Positions 12,450 to 27,646 of a stretch of 32,287 bases of DNA are shown piece after piece. The translations under genes were made by a program, and so were the position numbers. The DNA comes from Loigolactobacillus iwatensis. Lineage in GTDB: Bacteria > Bacillota > Bacilli > Lactobacillales > Lactobacillaceae. The stretch is from positions 1-32,287 of the forward strand of contig NZ_RHNP01000036.1 of assembly GCF_003950295.1 (NCBI RefSeq), read 5' to 3'. The notes under the pieces were generated by a model. That model was not told the DNA's origin, did no database searches, and worked only from the letters and a program-made list of their open reading frames with translations. How positions within the stretch are numbered: the first letter of the stretch is position 1; each line of letters starts with the position of its first letter.

Positions 12450-13316
12450 TTATACCAAATATTTGTTTAATGTTGCTAAGAATTGCTGATTTAAAGTAGA
12501 CAAATCGTTAATTGCGGTCAATATTTGTACGCTATTATCACTAGAAACATCCGTTTGTTTAATCAGACCTGATTTTAACTCTTGGGCACTCATCGTCAAA
12601 GTAACCGTTTTAAATGAGAAATATTCAGGATGAATTAAGGCTAATGCCGTCATGCCATCCCAATTAATAAAACCATCAATTTGCCACATGGCCGTATTTA
12701 CTTTCATCCAATCTAGGATAACTTTTTTCAGCCAAAGGTAACGTTCTTTATTTAATTGCTGCAAGTTCAGCTCAGTCCGCTTAAACAGTGCCCCAGAAAG
12801 GTACTGGCCACTAGCAATTAAGAGTGGTGCTCCACCAGTCAGCACACAGTGGGCCGCTTCAGGTGCTACCGAAAAATTTAATTCATTAACTAAAGTATTT
12901 TTAACAGTTAGTTGCTTAAATCGTCCGCCCATCACAATGATCCGGGCAACCAGTTTAAAAAAATCCGATTCATATTGCGCTGCTTCGGCCAAGTTGGCTA
13001 AACTTCCCGTTGCCAAAATAGTGATTTGGTGGGGGTACTTTCTAACTGAATCAACCAAAAACTTCCCCGCCGCCGAAATTATTTCATTTGAAGAATGAAT
13101 TTCTTTTCCAGCGTAGCTATTGAGGCCTAGACCAAATAATGAACCTAATTCATCCGTTTGTTCCGTGGCCTGTTTTACCGTACCATTGCCAAAGGTAAGC
13201 GTAACACCAAGTAAATCAACGTTAGTTTGTTGGCCTAAATAAAGTAAGGTTAGCCCATCGTCAATATCTTTCCCCGCTAATCCAATTGTATTATCACAGT
13301 CATAAATTAATTTCAT
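12450..13316 (-). CDS. divergent nucleoside hydrolase
   Basis: This 288-aa protein has the inosine-uridine nucleoside hydrolase fold. Members cleave the N-glycosidic bond of ribonucleosides using a Ca2+-bound aspartate cluster. The N-terminal cluster is [16 protein letters not shown] (Asp6, Asp8, Asp17, Asp19, Asp20), longer than the classical DTDxGx[15 protein letters not shown] and RIIVMGGRF match the family core. The usual FN..VDPEAA element appears as [12 protein letters not shown], with alanine in place of the aspartate, and the late DGMTALAL element keeps its aspartate. The gene lies in a tight block with two sugar transferases and a kinase-like gene, 20 bp before selD. A modified nucleoside substrate is likely; a seleno-nucleoside is only a hypothesis. 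Confidence 0.8.
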
Positions 13317-13318
13317 AA

Positions 13319-13945
13319 TTATCCTTTAATAAATTCGGCAACTTGATCCACGTCTGCCTTAAAATCAACATCAAGCAGCGTTGGCATTAACTGAAATTGC
13401 TGGTTACTTTCCTGTAGTAATTGCACTGTTGCTTCCAAAACACTAGCCGTACTCCAAGAAATATCTGTATTTAAAAAGGGGGCAGCATCACAACCACTAG
13501 TACCAAATAGATAATATCCTCCGTCAAATGTTGGCCCTAAAACGACATCGTTTTGACCTAAGGCTTGTGCAGCAGATTCAATCATTGCAACAGTTAATTG
13601 TGGAATATCACTACCAGTTAAAATAACCTTTTGATAACCCTGATCTTGAACCCTTTGAATAGCATGACTCATTTTCAAGCCTAAGGTACCTTCATCTTGC
13701 GGAAAGACCTGAATCCAATCCGGTAAACTGGCTAAAAATGACTGTGTTTGAGTCAAATCATGGCCTTGATAAGCCAAAAAGATAGTCATCGTTTTAGCCA
13801 ATTTTTGACTAAGACTAACTAAACGAGCCAGCATAATCGATTGAATCCTTGCCGCCTCAATTGCCGTCAAATCAGGCTCCAATCTGGTTTTCACGTAACC
13901 TGGTTCAGGAACCTTGGAAAAGATGATATATGCGCTCTTGTTCAC
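13319..13945 (-). CDS. TIGR04282-type glycosyltransferase-like protein (DUF2064)
   Basis: This 208-aa GT-A-fold nucleotidyl/glycosyl transferase-like protein has the DUF2064 motifs FSKVPEPGYVKTRLEP (near the N-terminus), TGSDIPQL (metal and nucleotide site) and LGPTFDGGYYLFG. The family was named transferase 1 of radical SAM/selenodomain loci and later tied to arsenosugar biosynthesis. The start is GTG at 13945, preceded by GGGGTGA; this GTG overlaps the TGA of the kinase-like gene (GTGA), so the two are translationally coupled. No ArsM- or radical-SAM-type gene is in the window, which argues against a standard arsenosugar route. Position one gene away from selD suggests a selenium-related sugar product. 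Confidence 0.85.
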   Translation of the reverse strand: MNKSAYIIFSKVPEPGYVKTRLEPDLTAIEAARIQSIMLARLVSLSQKLAKTMTIFLAYQGHDLTQTQSFLASLPDWIQVFPQDEGTLGLKMSHAIQRVQDQGYQKVILTGSDIPQLTVAMIESAAQALGQNDVVLGPTFDGGYYLFGTSGCDAAPFLNTDISWSTASVLEATVQLLQESNQQFQLMPTLLDVDFKADVDQVAEFIKG

Positions 13946-14943
13946 AAGTTCACCCCATATTTTTTTAATAGTGGCATCGCAAAATCTAACTGCAAAAAAG
14001 ATTGACATCGCTTTAAAATTTCAATATTTTGAATTGGTTTGTCAGCATAAGTAGCCACCAACATGCCACACCACGATAATGCACGTAATAATAAGAACGG
14101 CATATATAAATTAATATTAGTTTCTAGCAACTGCTCCCTTTGGCCAGTTAACTTAGCGTAGGTGGTCAGAAATAGTCTAGTTTGTTCCGTCGTTAGCCTT
14201 TCTGACGTACGCCATAAAGTTGTTGTTTCCGCCATAAACTGAGTCAAATCCTGAACGGCGTTACTAATAACGGGTTTCTCCCAATCGATCAGCCATCCAT
14301 AATCTGCCGTAATTAGAAAATTATTTGAATTAACCTCCGTATTAACCAGACACATCGGTTGCTCTAAGAAGTGTTCATCTGCATTATGCTGCGTACACCA
14401 ATCTTTTAAAGCAAATAATAAATCAGATTGCTCACTATTTATTTTAGATGAATCTCTAACCGCTTTCAATAGCTGATTTGCTTCGTTTAATCTAGCCGAA
14501 CAAATCTTAGTTTCGCTTTTCAACTGTGCGTAGGCCGCTGGCTTCAATTGTAAATTATGAATCGCAGCAAAGATTTCTGCTGCTCGGTGTAGATCACGAT
14601 GATAGACCAATGGTTCTCCAGGTAAAAAAGTTTCAATTAAAATATCGTGTTGAAAAAAGCGTTTGGTATCATCTAAATAAAGTGGCTCCGGTGTATGTTG
14701 ACTCTTATAAAGGATTTGTAATGCATGGTACTCATAGCGTGCTTGTTGCTTAACATTAATTTGTGAGCCATAATTCATGCGAAAAACAATTTTATTACTA
14801 GTAGTATCGGTAATTAAAAAGTTCCGATTATATTCTCCTTGCGCTAAAAATGAAATTTCTTTAATCGGAGCTAACTTAAGTTGCGCCATTATTTGTTCTT
14901 GGCTAAGATAACGACCAATTTTTTCAATTATTTGTTCGGCCAC
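13942..14943 (-). CDS. APH-family phosphotransferase-like protein
   Basis: This 333-aa protein has the aminoglycoside/choline kinase fold. It has an N-lobe with FLAQGEYNRNFLI (about 32-44) and IVFRMNYGS (52-60), a hinge region IETFLPGEPLV (103-113), and a metal-binding aspartate in LIDWEKP (Asp220). The catalytic loop, normally HxDxxxxN, reads NTEVNSNN (201-208), with Asn for His and Glu203 for the catalytic Asp. It may therefore be a weak or altered kinase, or a member of a subfamily using Glu. The start is GTG at 14943, 8 nt after GGAG. It overlaps the downstream transferase gene by 4 bp and follows the GT2 gene by 4 bp. A likely substrate is a small sugar or nucleoside alcohol, not known. 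Confidence 0.8.
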   Translation of the reverse strand: MAEQIIEKIGRYLSQEQIMAQLKLAPIKEISFLAQGEYNRNFLITDTTSNKIVFRMNYGSQINVKQQARYEYHALQILYKSQHTPEPLYLDDTKRFFQHDILIETFLPGEPLVYHRDLHRAAEIFAAIHNLQLKPAAYAQLKSETKICSARLNEANQLLKAVRDSSKINSEQSDLLFALKDWCTQHNADEHFLEQPMCLVNTEVNSNNFLITADYGWLIDWEKPVISNAVQDLTQFMAETTTLWRTSERLTTEQTRLFLTTYAKLTGQREQLLETNINLYMPFLLLRALSWCGMLVATYADKPIQNIEILKRCQSFLQLDFAMPLLKKYGVNL

Positions 14944-14947
14944 TATT

Positions 14948-15622
14948 TCATCTCCTTCGGTAGTACAAGCGACTTAATATTGTGGGACTAAAGCCCAGTA
15001 AGTAAAGTAATTTCAAACATTGCATTTTGAAGAACGTTTTAAACCGTCCTTCGCGATTGTATTTACGGGCACTTGTTAAAACTGGTAACGGAAATTGAAT
15101 GAATTCTGAATCGATTTTGGCCAACCGCCGACTAAACTCAAAATCCTCCATCAATGGTTGAACTGGAAAACCACCACTTTTTTCATAAATTGCCTTAGTC
15201 ACAAAAAGGCCTTGATCACCAAAAATTAGTTTGAATTTACGTGCCCGTAAATTTGACCCCCACGCTATTACGCGAAAGAAACGCGATTTATCGTTAAAAT
15301 GAAGCGTAAAGAATCCTACTTTGGCCGTTGTTTCACGTAATAATGATAAGGGCGATCCAACTGGAAAACGCGAATCCGCATGTAAAAATAATAATTTTGG
15401 GCTCTGGGCTACTGAACCACCTAGCCGCAGCTGTTGTCCCCGATTCGGCACGCCGTTATTACTATAGTGAAAGTTTTGGGGTAACCATTCAGGTCGCTTA
15501 CGTTGCTCACCATCAACAATTACAACTGCCACGTCCTCTAATCCCCAACGTTCTAATTCCACCACTAGTTGCTTTACTGCTGGATCATCATGAAAAATAG
15601 GGACAATAATTGTTAACCACAT
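14948..15622 (-). CDS. TIGR04283-type family 2 glycosyltransferase
   Basis: This 224-aa GT-A family 2 glycosyltransferase has TIIVPIFHDDPAVKQLV at the N-terminus, VVIVDGEQ, a nucleotide/metal motif LLFLHADSRFP (about 82-92), FGDQGLFV (about 139-146) and MEDFEFSRRL (about 162-171). The basic C-terminal part is amphipathic. It matches the family first called transferase 2 of radical SAM/selenodomain loci, usually partnered with the TIGR04282 protein encoded two genes on. Its ATG follows the ATPase gene's TAA directly, with no gap, linking the ABC transporter and the sugar block. Likely cytosolic or membrane-peripheral; donor and acceptor sugars are unknown. Confidence 0.85.
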   Translation of the reverse strand: MWLTIIVPIFHDDPAVKQLVVELERWGLEDVAVVIVDGEQRKRPEWLPQNFHYSNNGVPNRGQQLRLGGSVAQSPKLLFLHADSRFPVGSPLSLLRETTAKVGFFTLHFNDKSRFFRVIAWGSNLRARKFKLIFGDQGLFVTKAIYEKSGGFPVQPLMEDFEFSRRLAKIDSEFIQFPLPVLTSARKYNREGRFKTFFKMQCLKLLYLLGFSPTILSRLYYRRR

Positions 15623-16621
15623 TTAGTACACCACCGGTAACCGTTTAAAATAAAACTGTTTTTTTGTATTAATTTGAACACTATCAACGGGTAAATTAAG
15701 GTAAATAATCTCCGAGCCAACTGCAATTGTGACTCGCTCGCTGTCACCGATCCAAGTGGTTCCTACAATTTCACCGTTAAAAGCTGGGAAGGCAGTGGTC
15801 GCTAACTGAACTGAGCCAACAAATGGTATGTATAAGATTGCTTCCTTAACTGGCTCAGTGCCCCGAAAGTCACTATCACCAGTATAAATAGACGATACAA
15901 ATTGTTGTTGTTGAAAACTACCTTGAATAAAATTAGCCTGACCAAGAAATTTTGCCACTGCCAAATTAGCAGGTGTTTGCTCCAATTTTCTTGGTGTATC
16001 TATTTGCATGATCTGACCGTTAATTAAAATTGCCACTTGATTTGATAACAGATAGGCCTCGGTTTTGTAGTGCGTTACGAAAATAACCGTTAATTTAAAT
16101 TGCTGTTGTAACTTTTTTACAAAATCCAACATTTCCATTCGCAGGCCTTCGTCCAAACTAGAAAAAGGTTCATCCATTAAAAGTAGACTAGGGTTAAGGA
16201 TTAGGGCCCTGGCCAACGCAACACGTTGTTGCTGCCCACCAGACAGTTCATCCGGATACCGTTTGGCTAACTCCGTAATCTCCATTGTCATCATGATCCG
16301 TTCAGCACGTTGTCTAATTTCTGCTTTTTTTATTTTTTTTATTTTCAGTCCAAAAACAATGTTTTGAAAAACGGTCATGTGGGGAAACAAACGATAATCT
16401 TGAAACACCATAATCCCCTTGGGTTTCTGCTCATTGTCACCGGTAAAGGTCCCCGCAGTCGGATGATCAATTCGGGCCAAAATATTTAGTAAAGATGTTT
16501 TACCACTACCTGACGGGCCTAAAATAGCAAAAATACTATTATCATTGATCGATAAATTAACCTTCTTTAAAATCTGCTGGCCACCTTTTTTTTGCGAAAT
16601 ATTATTCAAATAATAAGTCAT
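15623..16621 (-). CDS. ABC transporter ATP-binding protein (YnjD-like)
   Basis: This 332-aa ATPase of an importer has Walker A GPSGSGKT (about 35-42), signature LSGGQQQR, Walker B LLLMDEP and the switch histidine in FVTHY. A C-terminal TOBE-like regulatory domain (about 230-332) resembles those of ferric/sulfate/spermidine importers. An in-frame upstream start exists at 16657, but AGGAGGGTGA lies 7 nt before the ATG at 16621, which overlaps the permease stop codon as ATGA. It is the last component of the lipoprotein/permease/permease/ATPase set that corresponds to E. coli YnjBCD. Substrate unknown; a selenium or sulfur oxyanion is a context-based guess. Confidence 0.88.
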   Translation of the reverse strand: MTYYLNNISQKKGGQQILKKVNLSINDNSIFAILGPSGSGKTSLLNILARIDHPTAGTFTGDNEQKPKGIMVFQDYRLFPHMTVFQNIVFGLKIKKIKKAEIRQRAERIMMTMEITELAKRYPDELSGGQQQRVALARALILNPSLLLMDEPFSSLDEGLRMEMLDFVKKLQQQFKLTVIFVTHYKTEAYLLSNQVAILINGQIMQIDTPRKLEQTPANLAVAKFLGQANFIQGSFQQQQFVSSIYTGDSDFRGTEPVKEAILYIPFVGSVQLATTAFPAFNGEIVGTTWIGDSERVTIAVGSEIIYLNLPVDSVQINTKKQFYFKRLPVVY

Positions 16622-17412
16622 GATTTGATCACCCTCCTTTCCTGATGAGACATCCAAGCATCAATCAAATAAAGTGGAATTAATGTAACCAGCATGAAAG
16701 TAACGCCATAAACGGCCGCAATTTTATATTTTCCGGCTTGCGTGAAGGGAAACATCCGCACTGATAAGGTTAAATATTTGCCATCTCCAACCAGTAGCGT
16801 TGCTAAATATTGGGTCATTGAAACAATGTAAGTCATCATGACGGCCCCTTGTAGCCCGTTCTTACTTAACGGAAGGGTTATCTGAAAAAAGGTCTGCCAA
16901 CCAGAGGCGCCTAAGTTGCGGCTAACAACCTCATAGCGATTATGTAAAAGGGCCAAGTTATCGACTAGTAGTTTAATTGCATAAGGTAAACAAAACAACG
17001 TATGAATACTAATGACGCCGAGAAAACTACCATCCAAACCCAGTTTAATCATCATGAAATCAACATTGGTTAATAAAGCGATACCAGGAATAATTAACGG
17101 CAAATAGACTAGAATATTCAATAATTTTTTCCCGCGAAATTGATAATAGGCCAAAACAATAGCCGTTGGGTACGCGATACTAATGGTCAGAACAATGGTG
17201 CCCAGTGCTAAAGAAATGCTTGCAGTGAGTGATGTTAATAGTTCGTGATTTGTGAACAGTAATTTGAAATAAGAACCAAAATTAATTTGTTGTGGCAAAA
17301 GCTGCGGATAATTCCAACTTTTTCCCACTGCCAACAGGACAATAACTAATAGAGGTAAGAAAACAAAGCAAGAAAAAATTAAAAAAATGGCCAGTTTAGT
17401 TAATTTTTTCAT
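16618..17412 (-). CDS. ABC transporter permease (YnjC C-terminal-half-like)
   Basis: This 264-aa integral membrane permease has about six helices and the cytoplasmic coupling motif VVSRNLGASGWQTFFQITLP (EAA loop; about residues 164-183). GGGAGG precedes the ATG at 17412, which overlaps the stop codon of the previous permease gene by 4 bp (ATGA). The two permease genes together equal the single fused YnjC of E. coli. Upstream and downstream overlaps show the four transporter genes are translated as a unit. It should form the membrane channel with its partner permease. No substrate clue is visible within the helices. Confidence 0.87.
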   Translation of the reverse strand: MKKLTKLAIFLIFSCFVFLPLLVIVLLAVGKSWNYPQLLPQQINFGSYFKLLFTNHELLTSLTASISLALGTIVLTISIAYPTAIVLAYYQFRGKKLLNILVYLPLIIPGIALLTNVDFMMIKLGLDGSFLGVISIHTLFCLPYAIKLLVDNLALLHNRYEVVSRNLGASGWQTFFQITLPLSKNGLQGAVMMTYIVSMTQYLATLLVGDGKYLTLSVRMFPFTQAGKYKIAAVYGVTFMLVTLIPLYLIDAWMSHQERRVIKS

Positions 17413-18287
17413 TTGCTACCTCCCGTATGTCCACCTGGTAAAAACCTCCCTATTTTTAATAACAATCCCGCAAATAAGATTGAAAAAAGGGACAAAATTA
17501 AGTTAAGGCTCATGGTTAATGGTAACTGCGTTAAGTCCCCTTGAACGTAAAGATCATAAATGTAGACCGGCAGCAGTTCGCGTTGTTGATTACCCAAAAG
17601 ATATGGCACTTCATACGAGCCAAAATTAAAGGCGAAGTTAATAATAAAAGCATTGATTAATGCTGGTTGAATCAAAGGTAATGAAATATGCCAAAAATTT
17701 TGCCACTTTGTTGCACCAAGATTTACAGCAACAATTTTATAGCGATCATCCATTTGTCGTAATACGAGTACCAAAGAAACAATCACGAAGGGAATCTCTT
17801 TCCATAAATAAGTTAAAATAATTCCTATTTGCAGTGGATCATTAACTAAAAGCGGAAAATGATTAATTGAAGCCATTATTCCTAAGTGTACCAATAAACT
17901 AGGAATAAGCCCGGTTTGACTGATCAACTGTAATAGTGCTAAAACAATAAAAATATGTGGTAACATCACGGGTAATTGCGCAATTTTAAAAAAAATGCGC
18001 GTAAAGTTATTTTTACGGCCATTGAATAAAAAAGCCAGCCCCAATCCAACGAGGCAGGCCATGGCAGTACTAAATAAAGCAAATAAGAACGTCCGCTCAC
18101 AACTTGCCAAAAAAGTTGCACTATGAAACGCCGATCCATAATACTGAAGACCAATTTTTTTCAGCCCAACAATCGGATAATAACCAAGACTGGTTACAAA
18201 TGATTTTAAAACGGCACTAAAAAAGAAAAGCGTGAAAAATAAATAAAACGGACTCAATAATAAAATTATTTTTCTTTTAGTTGGCAT
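17409..18287 (-). CDS. ABC transporter permease (YnjC N-terminal-half-like)
   Basis: This 292-aa membrane permease has six predicted helices and an EAA coupling loop IVAVNLGATKWQNFWHISLP (about 183-202) that docks on the ATPase. It resembles permeases of the ferric/thiamine/spermidine type. The start codon lies 8 bp upstream of the end of the lipoprotein gene (11-bp overlap), and its own end overlaps the second permease gene as ATGA. GGAAGGA lies 11 nt before the ATG, which is rather far, so coupling to upstream translation is probably important. It pairs with the permease encoded next. Confidence 0.87.
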   Translation of the reverse strand: MPTKRKIILLLSPFYLFFTLFFFSAVLKSFVTSLGYYPIVGLKKIGLQYYGSAFHSATFLASCERTFLFALFSTAMACLVGLGLAFLFNGRKNNFTRIFFKIAQLPVMLPHIFIVLALLQLISQTGLIPSLLVHLGIMASINHFPLLVNDPLQIGIILTYLWKEIPFVIVSLVLVLRQMDDRYKIVAVNLGATKWQNFWHISLPLIQPALINAFIINFAFNFGSYEVPYLLGNQQRELLPVYIYDLYVQGDLTQLPLTMSLNLILSLFSILFAGLLLKIGRFLPGGHTGGSK

Positions 18288-19524
18288 TCAAAACATGTTC
18301 CTTCCAAAGTTGTTCTATAATTGGAATTTTCTTACCTGAAACCTCAGGAATTCGCTTCTTGGCCAGTGTTTTAACTGGAACAGTATTATTTTTCTTGGCA
18401 GAATCATTTAACTTATCAGTAATCTCCGGTGGCATTTTACTTGCCGAATATGGTGGAATCGCAGCACCGTATTTCAAACTAAGCTGTTCACTTTGCGCCT
18501 TCTTACTGAGCATCATATTGATAAGTACAATTGCGGCCGCCTTATTAGGTGCCGTTTTCGGTACAGCCAAATAATTATAATTACCGATCGTTCCCTTATC
18601 AAACAAGAAAGTTTGCGCATCATTTGTAAATTGCCCAGTAGATTTTTGCGTTGCAGCGTACATTTGGTTATACGAAAAATCTAAGGCAATTTGATGATCG
18701 GCAAACATCTTATCCATTTGTGCCGTCGTCTTTGGGTAAGTTTTTCCGTTCTCCCATAAATAAGGTTTTAATTCATTTAAATAATCAAGGCTAGGCTTAA
18801 TCACTTTATAAATACCTGCCTTTGTCGCCGGCGCATCATTAAGTGCCTGATAACCAACCGTTTCATAAATAATGTTCCGGATAAAAGCACTACCTGTAAA
18901 ATCAGGTGGCGCAACGTAAGTTAATTTACCCGGATTGGTTTTGGCCCAATCCAATAACTTGGCCGCACTGGTTGGGTAGTTGCCATTAAACATTTTTTTG
19001 CTTCCGATCATTACAAATTGAGCATTACCATAAGGAACTTCCAGTTGATCAATTGGTGTCGCCATATCACGTTTAACATCAGGGTCACTAGCAGAAATAT
19101 AGCGTTTCATGTTAGGTAACATTTTGTTATTTAATGGACCATCTAGTAAGCCTAACTTCTTAGCGTTATAAAAATTCTCGCCATTAATCCAAACAACATC
19201 AATATTTCCTTGTTTTTTATTGGCCTCTTTTTCGGTCGTTAACTTATTAAGAATTGTATCAATGTCCATAGGAACTCGCTTAACGGTAATTCCTTTTTTC
19301 TTCATCATTGGTGTCACGACCTGATCAATCCAACGATTTTGTGTGTCCGAACCACCAAACCCATAATAGGTTACTGTCTGGCCCTTAGCTTGTTTTAAAG
19401 CCGTTTGATAGTTAGTTGGTAATTTATTAGCCGATTGTGAATCCTTACTGTTTCCCGCACAGCCACCTAAGATTAATAACGGTACTAACAAGACCAATAG
19501 CTTTAATCGTTTACCCCCGCGCAA
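18277..19524 (-). CDS. extracellular solute-binding lipoprotein (YnjB-like)
   Basis: This substrate-binding lipoprotein belongs to the ABC importer. The first 22 residues form a lipoprotein signal (RLKLLVLLVPLLILGGC), with Cys22 the lipidation site after LGG. The mature part has the periplasmic-binding-protein II fold, including VTYYGFGGSDTQNRWI, VVWINGENFY and GTIGNYNYLAVP, and resembles E. coli YnjB. Start choice: an upstream GTG at 19533 would directly abut AGGA, whereas the TTG at 19524 lies 8 nt after AGGAG, so I use TTG (415 aa). It follows the TVP38 gene closely. It should be anchored outside the membrane and feed the two permeases. Its ligand is unknown. Confidence 0.85.
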   Translation of the reverse strand: MRGGKRLKLLVLLVPLLILGGCAGNSKDSQSANKLPTNYQTALKQAKGQTVTYYGFGGSDTQNRWIDQVVTPMMKKKGITVKRVPMDIDTILNKLTTEKEANKKQGNIDVVWINGENFYNAKKLGLLDGPLNNKMLPNMKRYISASDPDVKRDMATPIDQLEVPYGNAQFVMIGSKKMFNGNYPTSAAKLLDWAKTNPGKLTYVAPPDFTGSAFIRNIIYETVGYQALNDAPATKAGIYKVIKPSLDYLNELKPYLWENGKTYPKTTAQMDKMFADHQIALDFSYNQMYAATQKSTGQFTNDAQTFLFDKGTIGNYNYLAVPKTAPNKAAAIVLINMMLSKKAQSEQLSLKYGAAIPPYSASKMPPEITDKLNDSAKKNNTVPVKTLAKKRIPEVSGKKIPIIEQLWKEHVLNAN

Positions 19525-19539
19525 AAGAATCACTCCTAT

Positions 19540-20193
19540 TTAAATCATTTTTTTGTGTTGACCAATTTTTTTAGGTATATACGTTAATAAGAATAAAATA
19601 ATCCCTAAAATTGTAAATTTAATTGATAATGATAACGTTAATCCTTGGGTCAGGATATCAGATGCCATATACGCATAGATAAAGCAGGCCGGTAGCATCG
19701 TAATTCCAGAAATAATTGAAAACCGTTCAAAACGCATCGGCGTCAGTGCGTAAGCATAACTTTGTAACGCGTACGGAAAAATTGGTACTAAACGCGTTAA
19801 AATCAGAAAAGATACACCGTTCTCATCAACACCGCGCATAACCTTTTGAAATGTCGGTTGATTGCCATATTTTTTTATGATGGCATCCTTCAATAACGTT
19901 CTTCCTAAAATAAACGAGACACTAGCACCAACTGTACTCCCAATTACAGTCAGCAACCCACCAATAAAACCACCGTACACAATCCCAGCAACAATCGCAA
20001 GCAGGCCTCCAGGTAACATAAACACTGCCGTAATAATACAAAGTAGAATAAATGTAAAATAACCTACCCAGCCTTGCTGCTGAAACCAGGCCTGCATTGC
20101 TGGCACATTTTGTAACTCTTTTGTTAACCCGGTTGTATAAAATAATACAATTCCCGCAATAATTATTGTGATGAATGCTAATACTTTCTTCAT
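19540..20193 (-). CDS. TVP38/TMEM64 (VTT/DedA-like) membrane protein, YdjX/YdjZ-like
   Basis: This 217-aa membrane protein has the SNARE-associated/VTT domain. An N-terminal helix is followed by the core GGLLAIVAGIVYGGFIGGLL (about 61-80), a re-entrant glycine-rich region GSTVGASVSFILGR, a cytoplasmic basic part with FLILTRLVPIFPYALQSY (about 129-146), and further helices. Family members flip lipids or transport oxyanions; DedA-type proteins have been linked to selenite uptake in bacteria. GAGGTG precedes the ATG. It lies between the HdrB-like gene and the YnjB-like lipoprotein gene and, with the second TVP38 gene, gives the pair seen in E. coli ydjX/ydjZ. Confidence 0.85.
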   Translation of the reverse strand: MKKVLAFITIIIAGIVLFYTTGLTKELQNVPAMQAWFQQQGWVGYFTFILLCIITAVFMLPGGLLAIVAGIVYGGFIGGLLTVIGSTVGASVSFILGRTLLKDAIIKKYGNQPTFQKVMRGVDENGVSFLILTRLVPIFPYALQSYAYALTPMRFERFSIISGITMLPACFIYAYMASDILTQGLTLSLSIKFTILGIILFLLTYIPKKIGQHKKMI

Positions 20194-20229
20194 ACTTGCA
20201 CCTCATGTAAGAATTCAGAAACTACCTTA

Positions 20230-20985
20230 TTATGCATGTTCAAGTATCCTTTTAGTTCGATAACGGTTCTTCCAAGACGTATACGTAGAATTAAGTACAT
20301 TTTCTGGGCAATGATCACCCTGCATTATAACGGGACCCCAGATTAGATCTAGTAAGTGCCAAGATTGGCCACCGCCATTCATCATAGCAGACCGGCATGA
20401 AGCACAATAAGTAACAATATTTTTAGTGGGTAAACTATTAACTCGGTGAGTCATTGCCTTTTTAGCTAATTTAGGATTAGTGACCCCGCACATGCCACCT
20501 AAACCACAGCATAACGTTTTTTCGCCAGACAATTTAGCAAGCTTAACCGTGTAACCCAATTCACGCAAAATATGAATTACGGCCTGATGAATGTCTGTTT
20601 CATGACGGGTCGGACACGAATCTTGGATTGTAAATACCATGTCACTAGAAGCAGCCTTACCAATGGCTTCTTTTGGTAAACCAATTTGGTCTAGCGTTGT
20701 CCAAAGTGACACACTTTTCACTCTATCCGTCTTACGAATCATGCTTAGACAGCCTTGGCAAGCCATGATCATTTCATCGACTTCGCAATCTTCAATTGTA
20801 TCAACTAGTGCATTGAACTTTTTTTCAAACTTTTTTTGCTCACCAATATAATAAAGCGGTTTCCCGCAGCACTGTTGGATAACTGATAGATCTGGGTAAA
20901 AGCTCTTTAAGTAAGTAACTGTTTTACCCACATATTCTGGGCAATAAGCACTCAAAGAACATCCTGCCATAAATCCCATTCGCAT
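20230..20985 (-). CDS. HdrB-like CCG-domain iron-sulfur protein
   Basis: This 251-aa cytosolic protein has two cysteine-rich CCG domains, as in heterodisulfide reductase subunit B and related proteins. The first domain has AGCSLSAYCPEY (near the N-terminus), IQQCCGKPL and MACQGC. The second has IQDSCPTRHE, KTLCCGLGGMCG and YCASC. In HdrB such motifs bind non-cubane [4Fe-4S] clusters that reduce disulfides. It lies 5 bp after the HdrC-like gene, and the two probably form one complex at the membrane face beside the TVP38 proteins. A role in reducing a seleno-disulfide, persulfide or imported oxyanion is plausible; a different Fe-S reductase function cannot be excluded. Confidence 0.85.
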   Translation of the reverse strand: MRMGFMAGCSLSAYCPEYVGKTVTYLKSFYPDLSVIQQCCGKPLYYIGEQKKFEKKFNALVDTIEDCEVDEMIMACQGCLSMIRKTDRVKSVSLWTTLDQIGLPKEAIGKAASSDMVFTIQDSCPTRHETDIHQAVIHILRELGYTVKLAKLSGEKTLCCGLGGMCGVTNPKLAKKAMTHRVNSLPTKNIVTYCASCRSAMMNGGGQSWHLLDLIWGPVIMQGDHCPENVLNSTYTSWKNRYRTKRILEHA

Positions 20986-20990
20986 TCTGT

Positions 20991-21356
20991 TTACCCCTTC
21001 CTTGTATAAGTAAATAACCTAAAATTAGAAAAAATTTGGTGAAAGCGGACACCACGTAATTGCTCCAGCGGTAACCGGCCTTTGTTTTGGACAATTAAAT
21101 CCTGTCTAATCGCTAAAAATGCATCCGCTATTTCCAATTTATACGGACAAACTATTGTGCAATGATGACAAAGCTCACAACTGTACGGAACAAGTGGATC
21201 TATTTCGCCGGTTGCAACAAAGTCGCCGAAAATCTTATCCGGTGCCTTTTTTTGCTGCCGTAAAAACATACAATCACGCATGCAACGGCGACAAGACGAG
21301 CAGGTATCAGCAATATATTGGGCCTTTGCAACTGTTTCTTCACTATACTTGATCAT
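20991..21356 (-). CDS. HdrC-like 4Fe-4S dicluster protein
   Basis: This 121-aa ferredoxin-like protein has two classical [4Fe-4S] motifs: CSSCRRCMRDC (CX2CX2CX3C) and CELCHHCTIVCPY (CX2CX2CX3CP). It resembles heterodisulfide reductase subunit C, which passes electrons to HdrB. An upstream in-frame start exists at 21425, but AGGTG lies 6 nt before the ATG at 21356, and this ATG overlaps the end of the TVP38 gene by 14 bp. I therefore start there. The HdrB-like gene follows 5 bp later. The electron donor is not encoded nearby, unless it is the NAD(P)H-dependent flavoprotein at 1773-3476. Confidence 0.87.
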   Translation of the reverse strand: MIKYSEETVAKAQYIADTCSSCRRCMRDCMFLRQQKKAPDKIFGDFVATGEIDPLVPYSCELCHHCTIVCPYKLEIADAFLAIRQDLIVQNKGRLPLEQLRGVRFHQIFSNFRLFTYTRKG

Positions 21357-22494
21357 TCGGGACACCTGTTTTCTTTTTTGCCTGTCGTTTTTGTAATATT
21401 TTACGAACAAACAACGACACAACAACCAATAAAATAACTGCTATCAATGCCATAAACAGCATCAATTTACTACCACCCAGACTGCCACCAACAAAGGAAT
21501 AAACAATCGTCGCCGGCAGTTGGCCAATTCCAGTTGCAATTAAGAATTTACCAACCTTCATATCAGTAAAACCAGCGCCATAACTGACTTCATCGAAGGA
21601 AACAAACGGTAATAGACGCAACACAATAATCGTGTAGTCGCCATACTCATTAAAGAAACCATCCATTTTGGCCAGAGCCTTTTTGGTAACTATTTTTTCG
21701 GCAAATGGTCGGCCAATTCCCCGGGCAATATAAAAGCATAGCAATGCCCCTAACATAGCGCTGAACCAGGAAAGCGCCGCACCAAATAGCCAGCCATAAA
21801 GATACGCGTTCGCAAATGTTAAGACAAACGCCGGTAAAGGAGCAAGAATTGATTGAAAAACCATTAAAAATGTTGAAATTAACGGGCCCCAAATACCAAA
21901 TCCAGCAATATAATTCCGAAGTGCTTTGATATCTAACTTGGCCAACATGACGCTGACCGTATCAATAAAATGTCGGTACCCTGGAATAAAATAATACCCA
22001 GCAATCAATAAAATAATGAACCCAATAGTAACACCTAAACTAATTTTACTTTGTAGTGTTAATTTAGTGATTTGGTCACCTTGGTTTAATTTAGGTACCG
22101 GGTGCCGATAACTATCTAGCACAAGGACCAATAGCCAGATAATTAATAGTACAAATACACTTCCGGCGGTCACTGAAAGTGACCAGTCCGCATTAAATAA
22201 CTCACGAACTGTTTCCCCTAAAACAACACTTAACGGATGCCACTGGTAAATGGCCAACAGTAACAGAAAGGAAACAGCAGAAATTATGAGCGTCTCCGAA
22301 AAACGAAAAATCGCCCAATTTTGTTGTAGATGCTTACCATAAAACAAATAACAGCAATATACCAATACCGTAACTACCGGTATCAACCAACCTAATGAAA
22401 TTCGCATTTGTAACCAAGTTGATTGCCATGCTAACAGTGCACACAATATCCCAATGACAACACCGTTATAAAGAATTCGCAATCTCGTCATCAT
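21343..22494 (-). CDS. TVP38/TMEM64 membrane protein with extra N-terminal membrane domain
   Basis: This 383-aa protein has about 160 N-terminal residues with five or so hydrophobic helices and no family I recognise, followed by a VTT/SNARE-associated domain (about 160-365). Motifs in the latter are PLPAFVLTFANAYLYGWLFG, the glycine-rich SAMLGALLCFYIARGIGRP and IIVLRLLPFVSFDEVSYGAG. It corresponds to the second TVP38 member of the E. coli ydjX/ydjZ pair but is much longer than those roughly 230-aa proteins. Its end overlaps the HdrC-like gene start by 14 bp, and it follows the YdjY-like gene by 27 bp. Likely a membrane transporter or flippase working with the Fe-S pair. Confidence 0.82.
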   Translation of the reverse strand: MMTRLRILYNGVVIGILCALLAWQSTWLQMRISLGWLIPVVTVLVYCCYLFYGKHLQQNWAIFRFSETLIISAVSFLLLLAIYQWHPLSVVLGETVRELFNADWSLSVTAGSVFVLLIIWLLVLVLDSYRHPVPKLNQGDQITKLTLQSKISLGVTIGFIILLIAGYYFIPGYRHFIDTVSVMLAKLDIKALRNYIAGFGIWGPLISTFLMVFQSILAPLPAFVLTFANAYLYGWLFGAALSWFSAMLGALLCFYIARGIGRPFAEKIVTKKALAKMDGFFNEYGDYTIIVLRLLPFVSFDEVSYGAGFTDMKVGKFLIATGIGQLPATIVYSFVGGSLGGSKLMLFMALIAVILLVVVSLFVRKILQKRQAKKKTGVPNDQV

Positions 22495-22521
22495 CGTACC
22501 CTACTCTCTTGATAATTTTAC

Positions 22522-23169
22522 TTATTTCACTTTGATCACTACAGCAAGTTGTGAACCATCCTTTGGTAAGACGCTTGATTTACCAGTAAAATGTTCGCCG
22601 TATTGGAAACCATATTTAGCACCTGAAGCAATTCCTACTGGGCAACTGTCAAAACAAAGTACACAGCCAGTCTTCATTTTATTATTTGTTGTCATATTGC
22701 CACCAAATTTAAAGTCCAAGTTCTTTACGTTCTTACCATTAACTTGTACTGCTTTTTCAGCCTTAACGCGTTTGCCATTAATTAGGAAATAAACTGCTAG
22801 ACTACTTCCCTTAATTTTTGAACCGGCCTTGGACTTTGCAGTTAAATTATTCCCGGCCTTAGCACCAACTTTTTTAAGGTCTTGGTAAAATGCTTTCGGT
22901 GTTGCTTCAGTTTTTAACAATGATTTATTTCCGTTAGAACCGTCAACGTTGACAATAACATGGCGCGTTGGTTGTGTCAGATAAGTTCCGTTAACGGTTG
23001 TCAAGATTGTTATTTCCTTCTTTTGCTTATCATACTTAATTGGTTTACTTGTTGTTAACCCAGCAACAGATTTAGTAGCCGCCTGACTATTCGATGATAG
23101 TGAGAACCCGATTCCTAATACCAATAGTAAAGCCGTCATTACGCTGATAAAAATTTGTTTCTTCTTCAT
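22522..23169 (-). CDS. secreted YdjY-like protein with cysteine motif
   Basis: This 215-aa exported protein has an N-terminal signal peptide (basic KKK, hydrophobic core VMTALLLVLGIGFSL, likely cleavage after SQAA). The mature region begins with a YdjY-like beta domain (VNGTYLTQPTRHVIVNVDG). Near the C-terminus is GCVLCFDSCPVG, with Cys169, Cys172 and Cys176 (CX2CX3C). Three cysteines are few for a ferredoxin cluster, so metal or selenium/sulfur binding is possible. GTG at 23178 is in frame, but GGAG lies 8 nt before the ATG at 23169, which I choose. It heads the run ydjY-like, TVP38, hdrC, hdrB, TVP38, ABC transporter, after a 111-bp gap that may contain a promoter. Confidence 0.78.
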   Translation of the reverse strand: MKKKQIFISVMTALLLVLGIGFSLSSNSQAATKSVAGLTTSKPIKYDKQKKEITILTTVNGTYLTQPTRHVIVNVDGSNGNKSLLKTEATPKAFYQDLKKVGAKAGNNLTAKSKAGSKIKGSSLAVYFLINGKRVKAEKAVQVNGKNVKNLDFKFGGNMTTNNKMKTGCVLCFDSCPVGIASGAKYGFQYGEHFTGKSSVLPKDGSQLAVVIKVK

Positions 23170-23289: not shown

Positions 23290-24192
23290 TTAATGCTCAA
23301 TTGGTGTGTCTTCCTCAGGAGCATGTCTAAAGCCTTGAACTAACATTGTAATTGCAGTGTACGTAACAACTATAATGACCAACCAAGTTAAAACCTTGAT
23401 ATTTAAGCTCTTGACAAGTTTAACGGCGATAAAGACCCCAACTACACCACCAATCGTAATACCAATTGTTGCAATCCGATTATAATCACCCTTACGAATA
23501 AACTCACGACTAGCAACCGGCATTAATGCTGCACAAGAAGCCATCATAATTGGAAATGCCGCAATTGGTGTTAAACCTAACAAATAGATCATTGCCATAC
23601 ATGGCGCGTACAGACCGATACCTGCTGTCATTAAGGCACCTAAAATAAAGTTACCAATAATACCAACAACCAGTTTCCAACCAACTAAAGCAGTTGCCTT
23701 ATTACCGCTACCTAAGGCAGCCAAGAAACCAGTATTCGATAGAAACATCAAAATTGCAGTGAGAATTAAAGCAAAGCCCATAATGATTTGAATTTTTTTC
23801 TCATCAAAACGTGAAATGAACTTTGACCCAAGAAACGAGCCCACTGTAGAAGCAATAACCAATGAAAGCAAAGTTACGCCACTAACCTTAACCGAAGTAA
23901 TAAATAAGAAAGCCTCGGCCAGTACGGGAATAGAACAAGCAATTGTTAAAGTACCCGGTAACAATTTGTCCGATTTCAAAAACTTTGTTAATTTTAAGAA
24001 CATGGTCGTTGGCGCGTAACTACCAATACCAAGCGCATCGAAGAAATTAGTAACAAACCCAATTCCTCCGGCCACGAACACATTACCATCATTTAATTTA
24101 TCCCGGTTTTTCGCCAAATCATGAACCCAAATTATGGCGAAATAGACCAATAAAATACCTAGTAAAATTTGTACCACTAAAGTCATCGACAT
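23290..24192 (-). CDS. TauE/SafE (TSUP) family transporter
   Basis: This 300-aa integral membrane protein has about eight to nine helices. The TSUP repeat glycine-rich segments are GGIGFVTNFFDALGIGS (about 42-58) in the first half and AGIGLYAPCMAMIYLLGL (about 190-207) in the second. TSUP proteins move sulfite, sulfoacetate or related sulfur compounds, mostly outward. It lies 15 bp after prdF with a GGGGG ribosome site, so it is the last gene of the proline reductase operon. A sulfur or selenium oxyanion substrate is a natural guess next to these genes, but nothing in the sequence fixes substrate or direction. Confidence 0.85.
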   Translation of the reverse strand: MSMTLVVQILLGILLVYFAIIWVHDLAKNRDKLNDGNVFVAGGIGFVTNFFDALGIGSYAPTTMFLKLTKFLKSDKLLPGTLTIACSIPVLAEAFLFITSVKVSGVTLLSLVIASTVGSFLGSKFISRFDEKKIQIIMGFALILTAILMFLSNTGFLAALGSGNKATALVGWKLVVGIIGNFILGALMTAGIGLYAPCMAMIYLLGLTPIAAFPIMMASCAALMPVASREFIRKGDYNRIATIGITIGGVVGVFIAVKLVKSLNIKVLTWLVIIVVTYTAITMLVQGFRHAPEEDTPIEH

Positions 24193-24207: not shown

Positions 24208-25224
24208 TTATTTCAATTCAAATCCATTTGACAATGGATCACGTGGATCAAATAAGAAGGTATTAAACCCTGTGATATAAGCTGATCCAGTGACTTCTGG
24301 AATAACAGCATCATAGTCTCCAACCTTAGCTTCTTCAACAACACGCCCTCTAAACTTCGTTCTTAGAATACTTTCATAAACAAAAGGTTCATCAATTTTA
24401 ATTTCACCTTTTGCGTATAAAGTAGCTAATTTTGCACTTGTTCCCGTCCCACAAGGTGAGCGATCAACTTGACCGTCACCGAAGACAACAACGTTTTGCA
24501 TTGTTGCATCGTCATCTTTTGGTTCGCCATACATTTCCACCAAATCAATTGAATTAATGTAGCTCATCGTTGGATGTTGAACCTTAATTTGTTCATTAGC
24601 CGCTCGTAAAATCTTCATACCAACATTAGCAAGTTCTGAGGCATTATTTGATTCGATTTTTCGATTAATTTCTGCAATGGGTAGAATTGCAAAGAAACTG
24701 CCACCAAAGGAAACATCAAGCTTTACTGCACCAATATCAGGAACGTTAATTGTTACGTCACGCTTATACAAAAATGCAGGAACATTTTTGAATGAAACGC
24801 TATCAACCTTAAATGGTTCACTCATATGAGCAACACATCTGATAATACCCGCTGGTGCTTCTAGGACAACTTCTTTTTCACGGTCATCTTCACTAACATC
24901 GACCATCCCAGTCTCAACAATTGCTGTAACAGCAGCGATTGTATTATGACCACACATGTTTAAATAGCCACCTGTATCCATGAAAATAATACCAAAATCG
25001 GCTTCATCACTGATTGCCGGAATTAAAAAGGCCCCAAACATTTCGTTATGCCCACGAGGTTCTAACATTAATGAAGTACGTAAAGTATCCTTATGATCAA
25101 TTAAATATTGTTTTTTTTCAGCAATTGTTTTACCGACCAACTTAGGAATACCACCCGTAATAATCCGTGCTGCTTCACCAGCAGTATGTGTATCAATACC
25201 TGATAACATTCGTGATAACTTCAT
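24208..25224 (-). CDS. prdF: proline racemase
   Basis: PrdF interconverts L- and D-proline so that the D-form can be reduced by PrdAB. The 338-aa cytosolic enzyme has the two-base cysteine pair of the family: Cys91 in NMCGHNTIA and Cys258 in RSPCGTGTSA. The segments GIDTHTAGEAAR (N-terminus) and MLEPRGHNEMFGA are also diagnostic. A GTG at 25245 is in frame, but GGAGG sits 7 nt before the ATG at 25224, so I start there. Having both catalytic cysteines favours proline racemase over trans-3-hydroxyproline dehydratase. It follows prdE in the operon. Confidence 0.95.
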   Translation of the reverse strand: MKLSRMLSGIDTHTAGEAARIITGGIPKLVGKTIAEKKQYLIDHKDTLRTSLMLEPRGHNEMFGAFLIPAISDEADFGIIFMDTGGYLNMCGHNTIAAVTAIVETGMVDVSEDDREKEVVLEAPAGIIRCVAHMSEPFKVDSVSFKNVPAFLYKRDVTINVPDIGAVKLDVSFGGSFFAILPIAEINRKIESNNASELANVGMKILRAANEQIKVQHPTMSYINSIDLVEMYGEPKDDDATMQNVVVFGDGQVDRSPCGTGTSAKLATLYAKGEIKIDEPFVYESILRTKFRGRVVEEAKVGDYDAVIPEVTGSAYITGFNTFLFDPRDPLSNGFELK

Positions 25225-25270
25225 AACCTTACCTCCAATATTCACAATTTAACTATTCGTTAAATTACGC

Positions 25271-25747
25271 TTATTTTGTTTTTAAATCTGAACGCATTTT
25301 TAATTTTAGAAAGCCCAATGCCTTATTAGCATCACGTAAATCAAGATTATTTTCTCCAACCACAGTTGTCTCAATACCCGCTTTTGATTTATTAATGTCT
25401 AATACAAAGGGCGTGTATTCATTAGTGACAACAAACGTTGCCTGCGTTCCAATAAATTTCAAACCAACAACTGAAATACCAACATGGCCGATCTCTGACA
25501 TTGTATTCATAAAATCCACATCAGAATTACCCCAGCCATCTGCAGATATTACTGCACCATCTGTTCTCATCGCTTGTAGCCATTTAGCGACTCTTTTCCC
25601 AACTAAATTTTTTAAAAGATTATCTTGTGGTGTTCCAACAACGATAACTCCTTGAAAGTCAATATCAGGATCATCGCCAAAAACTGCTACTAGTGGATCA
25701 CGAAAATGATGTAACGTTGTTTCTTTAGTTGATGGACCAACACCCAT
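25271..25747 (-). CDS. prdE: PrdE, PrdA C-terminal-half homologue
   Basis: This 158-aa protein is homologous to the part of PrdA after the pyruvoyl cleavage site. It begins MGVGPSTKETTLHHFRDPL, matching CIGPASKETSRHYWREPL of PrdA, and continues with VGTPQDNLLKNLVGKRV and DGAVISADGWGNSDVDF. The PrdA cysteine position is glycine here, so no pyruvoyl group can form. GTG at 25756 is in frame but almost touches the ribosome site, whereas AGGTG lies 8 nt before the ATG at 25747. It follows prdD by 22 bp. A scaffold or regulatory partner of PrdD is likely; the function is not established. Confidence 0.88.
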   Translation of the reverse strand: MGVGPSTKETTLHHFRDPLVAVFGDDPDIDFQGVIVVGTPQDNLLKNLVGKRVAKWLQAMRTDGAVISADGWGNSDVDFMNTMSEIGHVGISVVGLKFIGTQATFVVTNEYTPFVLDINKSKAGIETTVVGENNLDLRDANKALGFLKLKMRSDLKTK

Positions 25748-25769
25748 AGAAATCACACCTTTTTAATGG

Positions 25770-26510
25770 TTATACCATCGCGCGAATAGCGCCATCACGA
25801 TATTCATTTGGCGTTAACAAAACTGGAAAATTATTCATATCAATAATTGACACACCATTAGCCATACCACTAGGTTCATCTGGAAAAAGCAAATTATCGT
25901 ACATTGCTCCCTGACCGGCCACTTCTTTGACAACAACGACTTTAGGTTTTCCCGGATGAGACTCATTAGAATATTCATGGGTCTCGTCAGCGTAACGACC
26001 ATTAATCATTTTTAAAATATTCCTAATTGGCTGTAAATACTGATCCGCCAATGTAAAAATAGTTGTTACCAGTTGCCGATCAAAAGAGAAATTAGGTTTA
26101 AGCAAAACATCAAAAAAGATCATATAATCGTCTTCATTTGGAGTTCCAGCCTTCCCTAGTGATATTTTATCTTTTAATAACCCATTAGATGCACCAAAAT
26201 CATGTAATTGGATACCGGTCGTATCTGCCCCGGTAATGAGGAAGTAGGCCCCAGTTAGCGTGTGAGTAATCCCATCGCCAACCTTGCCAAGAACTTTAGT
26301 CGATATTGGGCAAATATCCATAATCGTATTAGTTTGGACATCTAAATGATGTGGCTTAACAATTCGAATGGTGATTGATTCAAAATTAGCGGGTAAGCTT
26401 GTGGATATTGTCTCTGGGATCGCTAAATGACCGTTCGTAAAACGATATTTAGTGTCGAATACAATGTCTTTTACTGAAAAGGCCTTTATTTTAAGCGTAT
26501 CTTCAGACAT
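25770..26510 (-). CDS. prdD: PrdD, PrdA N-terminal-half homologue
   Basis: This 246-aa soluble protein is homologous to the pre-cleavage part of PrdA. Shared blocks include TIMDICPISTKVLGKVGDG (PrdA: TIMDVQPIATKESGDLGSG), VVVVKEVAGQGAMYDNLLFP (PrdA: VLIVKEIMGQGAMHDNLLMP), and the end TPNEYRDGAIRAMV, which stops where PrdA reads DGGIHALT just before its cleavage cysteine. It therefore pairs with PrdE as a split copy of PrdA. GAAGGGA precedes the ATG. It lies downstream of the terminator-like hairpin after prdB, so its expression may be lower than prdA/prdB. The role in proline reduction is unproven. Confidence 0.88.
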   Translation of the reverse strand: MSEDTLKIKAFSVKDIVFDTKYRFTNGHLAIPETISTSLPANFESITIRIVKPHHLDVQTNTIMDICPISTKVLGKVGDGITHTLTGAYFLITGADTTGIQLHDFGASNGLLKDKISLGKAGTPNEDDYMIFFDVLLKPNFSFDRQLVTTIFTLADQYLQPIRNILKMINGRYADETHEYSNESHPGKPKVVVVKEVAGQGAMYDNLLFPDEPSGMANGVSIIDMNNFPVLLTPNEYRDGAIRAMV

Positions 26511-26539
26511 TTAAAATCCCTTCTTTAAGAAAAATAAAA

Positions 26540-26565
26540 AAGAGGCTATTCGAAAACAGCCTCTT
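26540..26565 (-). terminator. rho-independent terminator/attenuator after prdB
   Basis: Arms AAGAGGCT (26540-26547) and AGCCTCTT (26558-26565) make a perfect 8-bp GC-containing stem with a 10-nt loop. On the minus strand the stem runs straight into a T-rich tract. It starts 17 nt after the prdB stop and lies before prdD, so it should end most prdAB transcripts and let a fraction read through to prdDEF. Confidence 0.85.
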
Positions 26566-26582
26566 CCCACAAACCAGATTGT

Positions 26583-27308: not shown

Positions 27309-27646
27309 TTTGATTGCTCCTTTTCTTTTGTTTTTCTTTCTTGTGTTTCTTTTTGAATGACTTTCATTCGTTCTTGATAGGCATGTAACGCCCCAAGATA
27401 TTTTTCATTTGGTTGTTCTGATAGTACCTCTGGGTAAGACATTAAAAATCCTACTTCTTGGCCTACTTTTAATTCGTATTGTGAAATAACCATTCGCTTA
27501 GGTACTTCCAACCGGCCCATTCGTCCTTTGAAATCCATAATGACACTGGCACCAGTTACCTCAACGATGACACCTTCCCACACGGTTTCAGTAGAAGGAT
27601 AATTTAATTTGTCATATTCACTGGAAAAAGATTCATCAGAAGCCAT
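27305..27646 (-). CDS. small prd-operon protein (CBO2463/CBO2479-domain type)
   Basis: This 113-aa protein has a beta-rich first half (TVWEGVIVEVTGASVIMDFKG, RLEVPKRMVI) suggesting an OB/S1-like barrel, and a charged helical tail (QKETQERKTKEKEQ). It sits between prdA and prdB, where Clostridioides difficile and Clostridium botulinum proline reductase operons also carry a small conserved gene. The ATG overlaps the prdA stop (TAATG), and its own stop overlaps the prdB start (ATGA), so all three are translationally coupled. Possible roles are assembly, cleavage or membrane docking of the reductase, but none is shown. Confidence 0.75.
   Translation of the reverse strand: MASDESFSSEYDKLNYPSTETVWEGVIVEVTGASVIMDFKGRMGRLEVPKRMVISQYELKVGQEVGFLMSYPEVLSEQPNEKYLGALHAYQERMKVIQKETQERKTKEKEQSK

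Follow-up and report, generated by a model that had tools for sequence, protein, structure and literature searches.

A YdjY-YnjBCD gene module interleaved with selenium genes in Loigolactobacillus iwatensis, a candidate selenium supply system

The closest described relative of the genes considered here is the ydjXYZ-ynjABCDE cluster of Escherichia coli. Its ydjXYZ-ynjABCD part is listed among FNR-regulated operons, the sole activated -60.5 site in the text fits the table row of this operon, and ynjE is given as a gene under direct activation (PMC3688515, in the sections available to us). We analysed a 32,287-nucleotide stretch of Loigolactobacillus iwatensis DNA (contig NZ_RHNP01000036.1, hereafter the window; contig C30 of the 2.62 Mb genome) that carries a related gene module among genes for selenium use and D-proline reductase. 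An original prediction had placed this module at 15623-23169 and proposed that it takes up and reduces a selenium compound or a sulfur/selenium oxyanion. In a sample of the family Lactobacillaceae, its substrate-binding protein YnjB was found above cut-off exclusively in genomes that also carry selD. Searches of an open-licence library turned up no paper tying ydj/ynj module genes to selenium.

Gene families were called from Pfam and NCBIfam profile matches with the models' cut-offs. The genes at 15623-23169 all lie on the minus strand and are tightly packed. The genes that we assign to the module are, in the direction of reading:

31110..32153, minus strand: YnjE-like two-domain rhodanese (PF00581), signal-like N-terminus by eye, active loop CGTGWRAA
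22522..23169, minus strand: YdjY (NF040466, 124 bits, cut-off 50), signal-like N-terminus by eye
21343..22494, minus strand: VTT/TVP38 protein, YdjZ side (PF09335, 82 bits)
20991..21425, minus strand: 4Fe-4S dicluster protein, HdrC-like, Fer4 (PF13534), two CX2CX2CX3C motifs
20230..20985, minus strand: CCG iron-sulfur protein, HdrB-like (PF02754, two stretches), two CX(n)CCX(n)CX2C motifs
19540..20193, minus strand: VTT/TVP38 protein, YdjX side (PF09335, 91 bits)
18277..19533, minus strand: YnjB substrate-binding protein (NF008633, 378 bits, cut-off 203), lipobox-like LGGC by eye
17409..18287, minus strand: ATP-binding cassette (ABC) permease 1, part of YnjC (PF00528)
16618..17412, minus strand: ABC permease 2, part of YnjC (PF00528)
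15623..16657, minus strand: ABC ATPase, YnjD (PF00005)
14948..15622, minus strand: TIGR04283-like transferase (176 bits, under the cut-off of 182)
13942..14943, minus strand: APH-like kinase (PF01636)
13319..14008, minus strand: TIGR04282/CofC-like transferase (TIGR04282, 174.6 bits, cut-off 134)
12450..13316, minus strand: nucleoside hydrolase (PF01156)
5584..5985, minus strand: membrane-like protein of 133 amino acids, which follows the nucleoside hydrolase where the module is a separate unit (loci L032, L114, L134)
5251..5559, minus strand: small rhodanese (PF00581), which ends the separate unit (L032, L134, L053, L056)

The window shares with E. coli the YdjY, YdjX-like and YdjZ-like TVP38, YnjB, YnjC, YnjD and YnjE families, and the names given to these genes in the original prediction were borne out by profile matches, comparison with E. 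coli and the best solved relative. The TVP38 protein at 21343-22494 is 44% identical to E. coli YdjZ and 26% to YdjX, that at 19540-20193 is 42% identical to YdjX and 28% to YdjZ, and the best solved relative of the YnjE-like protein is E. coli YnjE (3ipo/2wlr), at 236 bits compared with 163 bits for the next kind. The window differs from E. coli in that YnjC is split in two, in the four sugar/phosphate genes at 12450-15622 and in an HdrBC-like iron-sulfur pair that, as predicted, lies between the two TVP38 genes (Fer4 at 20991-21425, CCG at 20230-20985). YnjB is just 35% identical to its E. coli counterpart, and a tblastn search of the window with E. coli YnjA gave nothing at E ≤ 10. In E. 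coli K-12, selD lies 6.2 kb from ynjE, on the opposite strand and with six genes between; the closeness of cluster and selD stated in the original prediction is not an operon link.

The ydjY gene begins with ATG preceded by GGAG, and its product has a conserved H73 and a CX2CX3C motif whose three cysteines are invariant in 43 alignment rows. Searches against solved structures returned nothing useful for YdjY and CCG, and weak relatives only for YnjB (polyamine, iron and aminoethylphosphonate binding proteins). The N-terminal extension of the TVP38 protein at 21343-22494 resembles a separate membrane protein of about 140 amino acids that is encoded after ydjY elsewhere (blastp E 2e-9 to L080). 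The associated sequence cluster has members in 24 of 56 YdjY loci. A TudS-related putative desulfidase (30559-31056; NF045597, 147 bits, cut-off 130) lies 53 bp after ynjE.

The original prediction called for a survey of the module against selD-negative relatives, which we ran in part. Among 201 Lactobacillaceae genomes, the window's own included, selD was above cut-off in 11 and YnjB in eight; all eight belong to the 11 selD-positive genomes, and none of the 190 selD-negative genomes had YnjB above cut-off (three carried weaker matches below it). The same eight genomes carry TIGR04283 (E ≤ 1e-20; six above cut-off), and YdjY is present in six genomes, all with selD. The hypergeometric probability of the overlap between YnjB and selD is 2.9e-12 when genomes are taken as independent, and 0.001 when counted by genus (3/40 inside 5/40). 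The four genes behind YnjBCD keep their order in all eight module-bearing genomes (in G006 across a contig break). The Fer4-CCG pair was found in the examined stretches of six of the eight, in G375 beside YdjY and away from YnjB.

SelB was above cut-off in seven of the 11 selD-positive genomes, the others being G002, G375, G405 and G431. The module is carried by all four of the genomes lacking selB and by four of the seven that have it; a role restricted to selenocysteine (Sec) was dropped on account of the former. In G405, which lacks selB, the selD unit stands beside molybdenum hydroxylase-like, XdhC, xanthine permease and YqeB/YqeC genes (by eye), an arrangement that resembles a purine cluster. 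The occurrence of the module in both kinds of genome, together with this hydroxylase cluster, suggests that the common factor is selenium demand, not one downstream pathway. The genomes lacking selB form a single clade in the SelD tree (100/100), whereas the two kinds are mixed in the YnjB tree, where G002 and G375 fall among selB-bearing genomes, G405 and G431 stand apart, and 0 of 200 bootstrap trees separate the kinds. The two parts therefore differ in history and yet co-occur. Module and selD are separated in G010, G405 and G431, and G002, G375 and G495 carry them on different contigs; together with the disagreement of the trees, this makes hitch-hiking of a single block unlikely.

Three further samples gave the same direction of association, although their counts are not independent, because 60 relatives overlap the 201 family genomes and six of the eight phylum-level YdjY genomes probably overlap the 56 named loci. 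YdjY was present in four of the 60 relatives, all of them selD-positive (selD above cut-off in ten). At phylum level all eight YdjY genomes of 299 carry selD (hypergeometric 0.035), a weak test because the selD base rate is high (198/299). A scan of named genomes yielded 56 YdjY loci which, judged by their titles, come from Lactobacillales, Clostridia-like, Coriobacteriia-like, delta-proteobacterial and enterobacterial genomes. Fifty of these genomes were submitted to a selD search and 49 were searchable, leaving out five Escherichia loci, one partial locus and L095. SelD was found in 46 of the 49, including four Lactobacillaceae, all selD-positive. The three misses (L060, L061, L082) are metagenome drafts. 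In two of them a TIGR04167 gene contains an in-frame TGA, which makes it possible that these drafts simply omit selD. The module was thus not as common without a selenium trait as with one, either in the family or among these YdjY genomes. Ten of the 49 genomes gave two or three selD matches each, some partial, and in G541, G542, G546 and G555 a match with an in-frame TGA is accompanied by one without.

The unit itself proved larger than predicted. The genes at 15623-23169 are real, but the interval is too short: YnjD is followed at a gap of 0 bp by the four co-directional genes at 12450-15622, and selD comes 20 bp after the last of these. The predicted contiguity with selD, selA and selB therefore holds through four intervening genes and is not direct. 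All genes from tauE through proS are co-directional, with 120 bp between tauE and ydjY and no gap above 36 bp downstream of ydjY. In relatives, ynjE and the two genes that here follow selA are part of this unit as well. A promoter and terminator scan of the window gave counts similar to those of shuffled sequence, and no claim about transcription units rests on it. The selenium and proline reductase genes among which the module lies are:

24208..29562, minus strand: D-proline reductase operon (PrdA, 113-amino-acid protein, PrdB, PrdD, PrdE-like protein, proline racemase-like protein)
23290..24192, minus strand: TauE/SafE-like protein (PF01925)
11386..12429, minus strand: selD (TIGR00476, 379 bits)
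10708..11364, minus strand: yedF (TIGR03527, 197 bits)
10414..10692, minus strand: selenium/sulfur (Se/S) carrier-like DUF3343 (PF11823)
8528..10405, minus strand: selB (TIGR00475, 347 bits)
7370..8518, minus strand: cysteine desulfurase or Sec lyase-like protein (TIGR01977, 406 bits; SclA model 307 bits, below cut-off)
5982..7364, minus strand: selA (TIGR00474, 593 bits)

In G010 the module stands as a separate cluster about 10 kb from prdA, in the order ynjE, ydjY, two vtt genes, ynjB, two ynjC genes, ynjD, transferase, kinase, TIGR04282, nucleoside hydrolase, 133-amino-acid protein and rhodanese. This order recurs in L053 and L056, with an unlabelled open reading frame (ORF) of 133 or 139 amino acids replacing the 133-amino-acid gene, in L114 (G495) up to the 133-amino-acid gene, where the stretch ends, and in L134 (G375) without ydjY and with one vtt gene; ynjE directly precedes ydjY in L031, L053, L056 and L114. 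The window keeps the same order, but ynjE is separated from ydjY by the prd operon together with tauE and a further two small genes, and the nucleoside hydrolase from the 133-amino-acid gene by the sel operon (selD, yedF, DUF3343, selB, the cysteine desulfurase-like gene and selA). Two contigs of G006 match this arrangement as far as they extend. At loci without the module in this position, tauE adjoins selD (L032/L033, L116, L138, L140), and in four selB-bearing relatives (G428, G429, G495, G010) prd genes and tauE directly adjoin selD. Read from gene order, the module unit thus alternates in the window with the prd operon and the sel operon.

In the wider collection, locus ORFs were labelled with domain-limited profiles; ORF picking missed YdjY itself in four of the 56 loci because longer overlapping ORFs were retained. 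Among these loci a VTT ORF was found in 46, CCG in 24, CCG and VTT within a single ORF in 12, YnjB in 19, TIGR04283-like and TIGR04282-like ORFs in 15 each, yedF in six and selD in four, the last within 10 kb of YdjY (many loci end at contig ends). The 12 loci with a CCG-VTT ORF bear delta-proteobacterial, Syntrophobacter-, Syntrophus- or Desulfarculus-like titles, one reading just 'Proteobacteria', and a Pfam check found both domains in four of five ORFs (L080, L060, L089, L101) and VTT only in L069. At L080:8089-9945 and other loci, Fer4, CCG and TVP38 domains lie within one ORF adjoining ydjY. Radical SAM, flippase-like, C_GCAxxG_C_C, MacB-like and cytidine diphosphate (CDP)-alcohol transferase genes recur in some YdjY loci. 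In Facklamia languida the module is contiguous with selD-yedF-selB-selA and includes DsbD_TM and redoxin genes, its kinase and TIGR04282 parts form one ORF, and the module contig gave no Fer4-CCG match. Beside the DsbD_TM and redoxin genes of this module lies a PrdB-like ORF with an in-frame TGA (L070:4879-5600, U156).

The iron-sulfur pair also resembles part of NF045663 ('diclust_near_Sec', pyridine nucleotide-disulfide oxidoreductase/dicluster-binding), whose middle and C-terminal parts are matched by Fer4 (32 bits) and CCG (187 bits). Unlike that family, the window has two separate genes without the flavin part, scoring far below the 530-bit cut-off, and elsewhere CCG forms a single ORF with TVP38 instead. 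The iron-sulfur pair, its union with TVP38 in one ORF and the DsbD_TM and redoxin genes of Facklamia make a redox step at the membrane plausible.

We consider the best single reading to be that the module supplies selenium, or sulfur and selenium, under anaerobic conditions, and give it a probability of roughly 0.45. YnjBCD, which we infer to be an ABC importer from its families, would import a selenium compound or a mixed Se/S compound. A membrane-bound reductive step may be formed by the TVP38 proteins together with YdjY on the outer side and the Fer4-CCG pair on the inner side, and YnjE, the small rhodanese, the desulfurase, YedF and the Se/S carrier could then pass reduced selenium to SelD. 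Rhodaneses can hold selenium. What the analysis shows is the gene content, the co-occurrence with selD, the union of CCG and TVP38 in one ORF in some genomes and the interleaving with the sel operon; substrate, direction of transport, redox reaction and hand-over are what we infer. If the reading is correct, a missing route of anaerobic selenium uptake and preparation would gain named genes to test, the FNR-regulated relative in E. coli K-12 would be a first place to look, and genetics could be brought to bear on how gut and food anaerobes manage selenium. The HdrBC-like iron-sulfur and TVP38 domains found in a single ORF would give a handle on TVP38 function.

Several observations weigh against a selenium supply role. 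Its support is association between genes, which does not bear on the substrate. Three of the 11 selD-positive family genomes (G001, G428, G429) are without the module, showing that it is not required for selenium use. YdjY and the Fer4-CCG pair each occur in six of the eight module genomes and neither is constant; the pair was not found in the stretches of G010 and G495, nor in L053 and L056. Clostridial YdjY genes mostly lie near TVP38, TIGR04282 and TIGR04283 genes and do not adjoin sel genes. YnjB proteins of Metabacillus (35%), Deinococcus (36-37%) and one member of the Rhodobacteraceae (34%) are related to that of the window at identities like that of E. coli (35%). In three of five examined records (Metabacillus, Ilyobacter and a Klebsiella plasmid) such relatives stand beside genes for TVP38, a flavin adenine dinucleotide (FAD)-dependent oxidoreductase and a CDP-alcohol transferase; a search of these three records for YdjY gave none. 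The COG0398 TVP38 subfamily, in which we would place YdjX and YdjZ, is associated with aerobic metabolism in one paper, which suggests phospholipid scrambling for it (PMC10127716, in the part available). Finally, the four genes behind YnjBCD look like sugar or nucleotide chemistry, which simple uptake leaves unexplained. Given the plasmid YnjB systems without YdjY and the link of TVP38 to aerobic metabolism, we confine the claim to the YdjY-bearing and family-level module and do not extend selenium specificity to the wider YnjBCD/TVP38 family; extension of the role to the E. coli cluster is weaker. The predicted selenium link agrees with the survey where the survey can discriminate, while uptake, reduction and substrate keep the standing of proposals. 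DedA-type proteins had also been said to be connected with selenite uptake, but the title of a paper on DedA and selenite speaks of resistance, not of uptake.

The same plasmid systems bring in the main competitor, a general handling of sulfur, thiols or electrophiles at the membrane, in which TVP38, a reductase and YnjBCD would act on a disulfide-like or oxidised sulfur compound. The tie to selD would then reflect anaerobic reductive metabolism and shared island transfer, not selenium itself. YnjB relatives with TVP38 and FAD-dependent oxidoreductase genes in other bacteria fit this proposal, as do the TudS-related putative desulfidase after ynjE and the rhodanese genes, which require sulfur alone. 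Pyridine nucleotide-disulfide oxidoreductase is the domain to which COG0398 TVP38 proteins are most often fused (PMC10127716, same part). However, the 190 selD-negative family genomes need sulfur too and have no YnjB above cut-off, and the module accompanies two distinct pathways of selenium use, the selD of which has a different history. We regard a sulfur role as possible but rather unlikely.

Plasmid records gave 75 YnjB relatives, at less than 60% identity, and YdjY in four Escherichia records and one Acetoanaerobium record only; the Acetoanaerobium YnjB record has Fer4, CCG, YdjY and TVP38. In Peptoclostridium acidaminophilum (L232) a nucleoside hydrolase gene lies directly upstream of ynjBCCD, with no YdjY within the stretch. 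The Klebsiella plasmid (L236) carries a fusion of TVP38 and FAD oxidoreductase with YnjBCD relatives, near DUF692, DUF2282 and DoxX genes. CDP-alcohol transferase and YnjB parts share a single ORF at L108:12790-14460, and CDP-alcohol transferase genes also occur near YnjD in L065, L084 and L088.

The four genes between YnjD and selD prompt a different proposal, in which the module consumes selenophosphate and does not supply selenide. A sugar or nucleoside that contains selenium would be synthesised or recycled by SelD, the kinase, the TIGR04282 and TIGR04283 proteins and the nucleoside hydrolase, and the ABC and TVP38 components would move it. The order of the four genes, constant in all module-bearing family genomes, their position beside selD in the window and the single kinase-TIGR04282 ORF of Facklamia speak for it. 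Yet the surroundings of YdjY in E. coli K-12 showed none of the four genes, TIGR04282- or TIGR04283-like ORFs occur in L101 only of the twelve CCG-VTT loci (several of them short contigs), and selD has another likely use, with selB in seven genomes and with the hydroxylase cluster in G405. We think this role unlikely. More doubtful still is the idea that anaerobes, and perhaps E. coli K-12 as well, possess a system dedicated to acquiring selenium. In it, a small carrier, linked to a sugar or a lipid and made by the kinase, nucleotidyltransferase, transferase and nucleoside hydrolase, would capture extracellular selenium and be brought across by the ABC and TVP38 proteins, and an HdrBC-like iron-sulfur reductase coupled to TVP38 would free selenide for SelD.

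Database names of TIGR04282 and TIGR04283 suggest an arsenosugar pathway, and both kinds are present in the window, TIGR04282 above its cut-off. Radical SAM ORFs were found by clustering near YdjY in eight loci, five of which (L091, L094, L098, L101, L103) coincide with matches to TIGR04167, the radical SAM partner of the arsenosugar pair. TIGR04167 was nevertheless found in 17 of 58 genomes overall and in none of the 11 selD-positive family genomes, the window's own included, and TIGR04283 in the window is slightly below its cut-off, making an arsenic function very improbable. We give least credence to molybdate transport or molybdopterin sulfuration, a possibility raised by the annotation of E. 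coli YnjE as a molybdopterin synthase sulfurtransferase and by the best below-cut-off models of the permeases (Mo_ABC_porter, CysT and ModB for permease 1; Mo_ABC_porter, PotC and ModB for permease 2). Such likeness below cut-off, to molybdate, sulfate, polyamine and tungstate types, proves nothing about the ligand. The main contig of F. languida (1,717,767 bases) has the module but no match to moaA, moaB, moaC, moaE or modA at 1e-5, while a UvrB control was found; moeA and moeB matches are weak (27% over 136 amino acids; 25%), and moaD was not tried.

Returning to the surroundings of the module, selA, selB, selD, PrdA, PrdB and PrdD are each above their NCBIfam cut-offs, and the reading frame of PrdB contains a TGA, taken as U151. 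The window thus holds what defines a Sec-trait island, namely selA, selB, selD and a selenoprotein gene. No tRNA-Sec was found in the window (the rest of the genome was not searched), and simple folding of the sequence past the PrdB TGA, done to look for a selenocysteine insertion sequence element, came out no better than shuffles (z +1.95). Of the selenium candidates YedE, YedF and DUF3343 (PMC5322559), the latter two are present in the window island and YedE is not among the names assigned to the scanned window genes. Selenium-related redox and trafficking roles have been proposed for YedF and DUF3343 (PMC5322559, PMC9312934, in the parts available), and the available main text of PMC5322559 makes no mention of ydj, ynj, TVP38 or DedA. 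The gene order of the prd operon is the same in L116, L138 and L140. Between prdB and prdD, at 26537-26568 on the minus strand, a fourteen-pair hairpin is followed by T-rich sequence, perhaps an attenuator. The gene at 1773-3476 encodes a pyridine nucleotide-disulfide reductase with a rhodanese tail, nearest to coenzyme A-disulfide reductase models though below their cut-offs, and a 68% identical copy of it lies directly after selA in L033:6584-8281.

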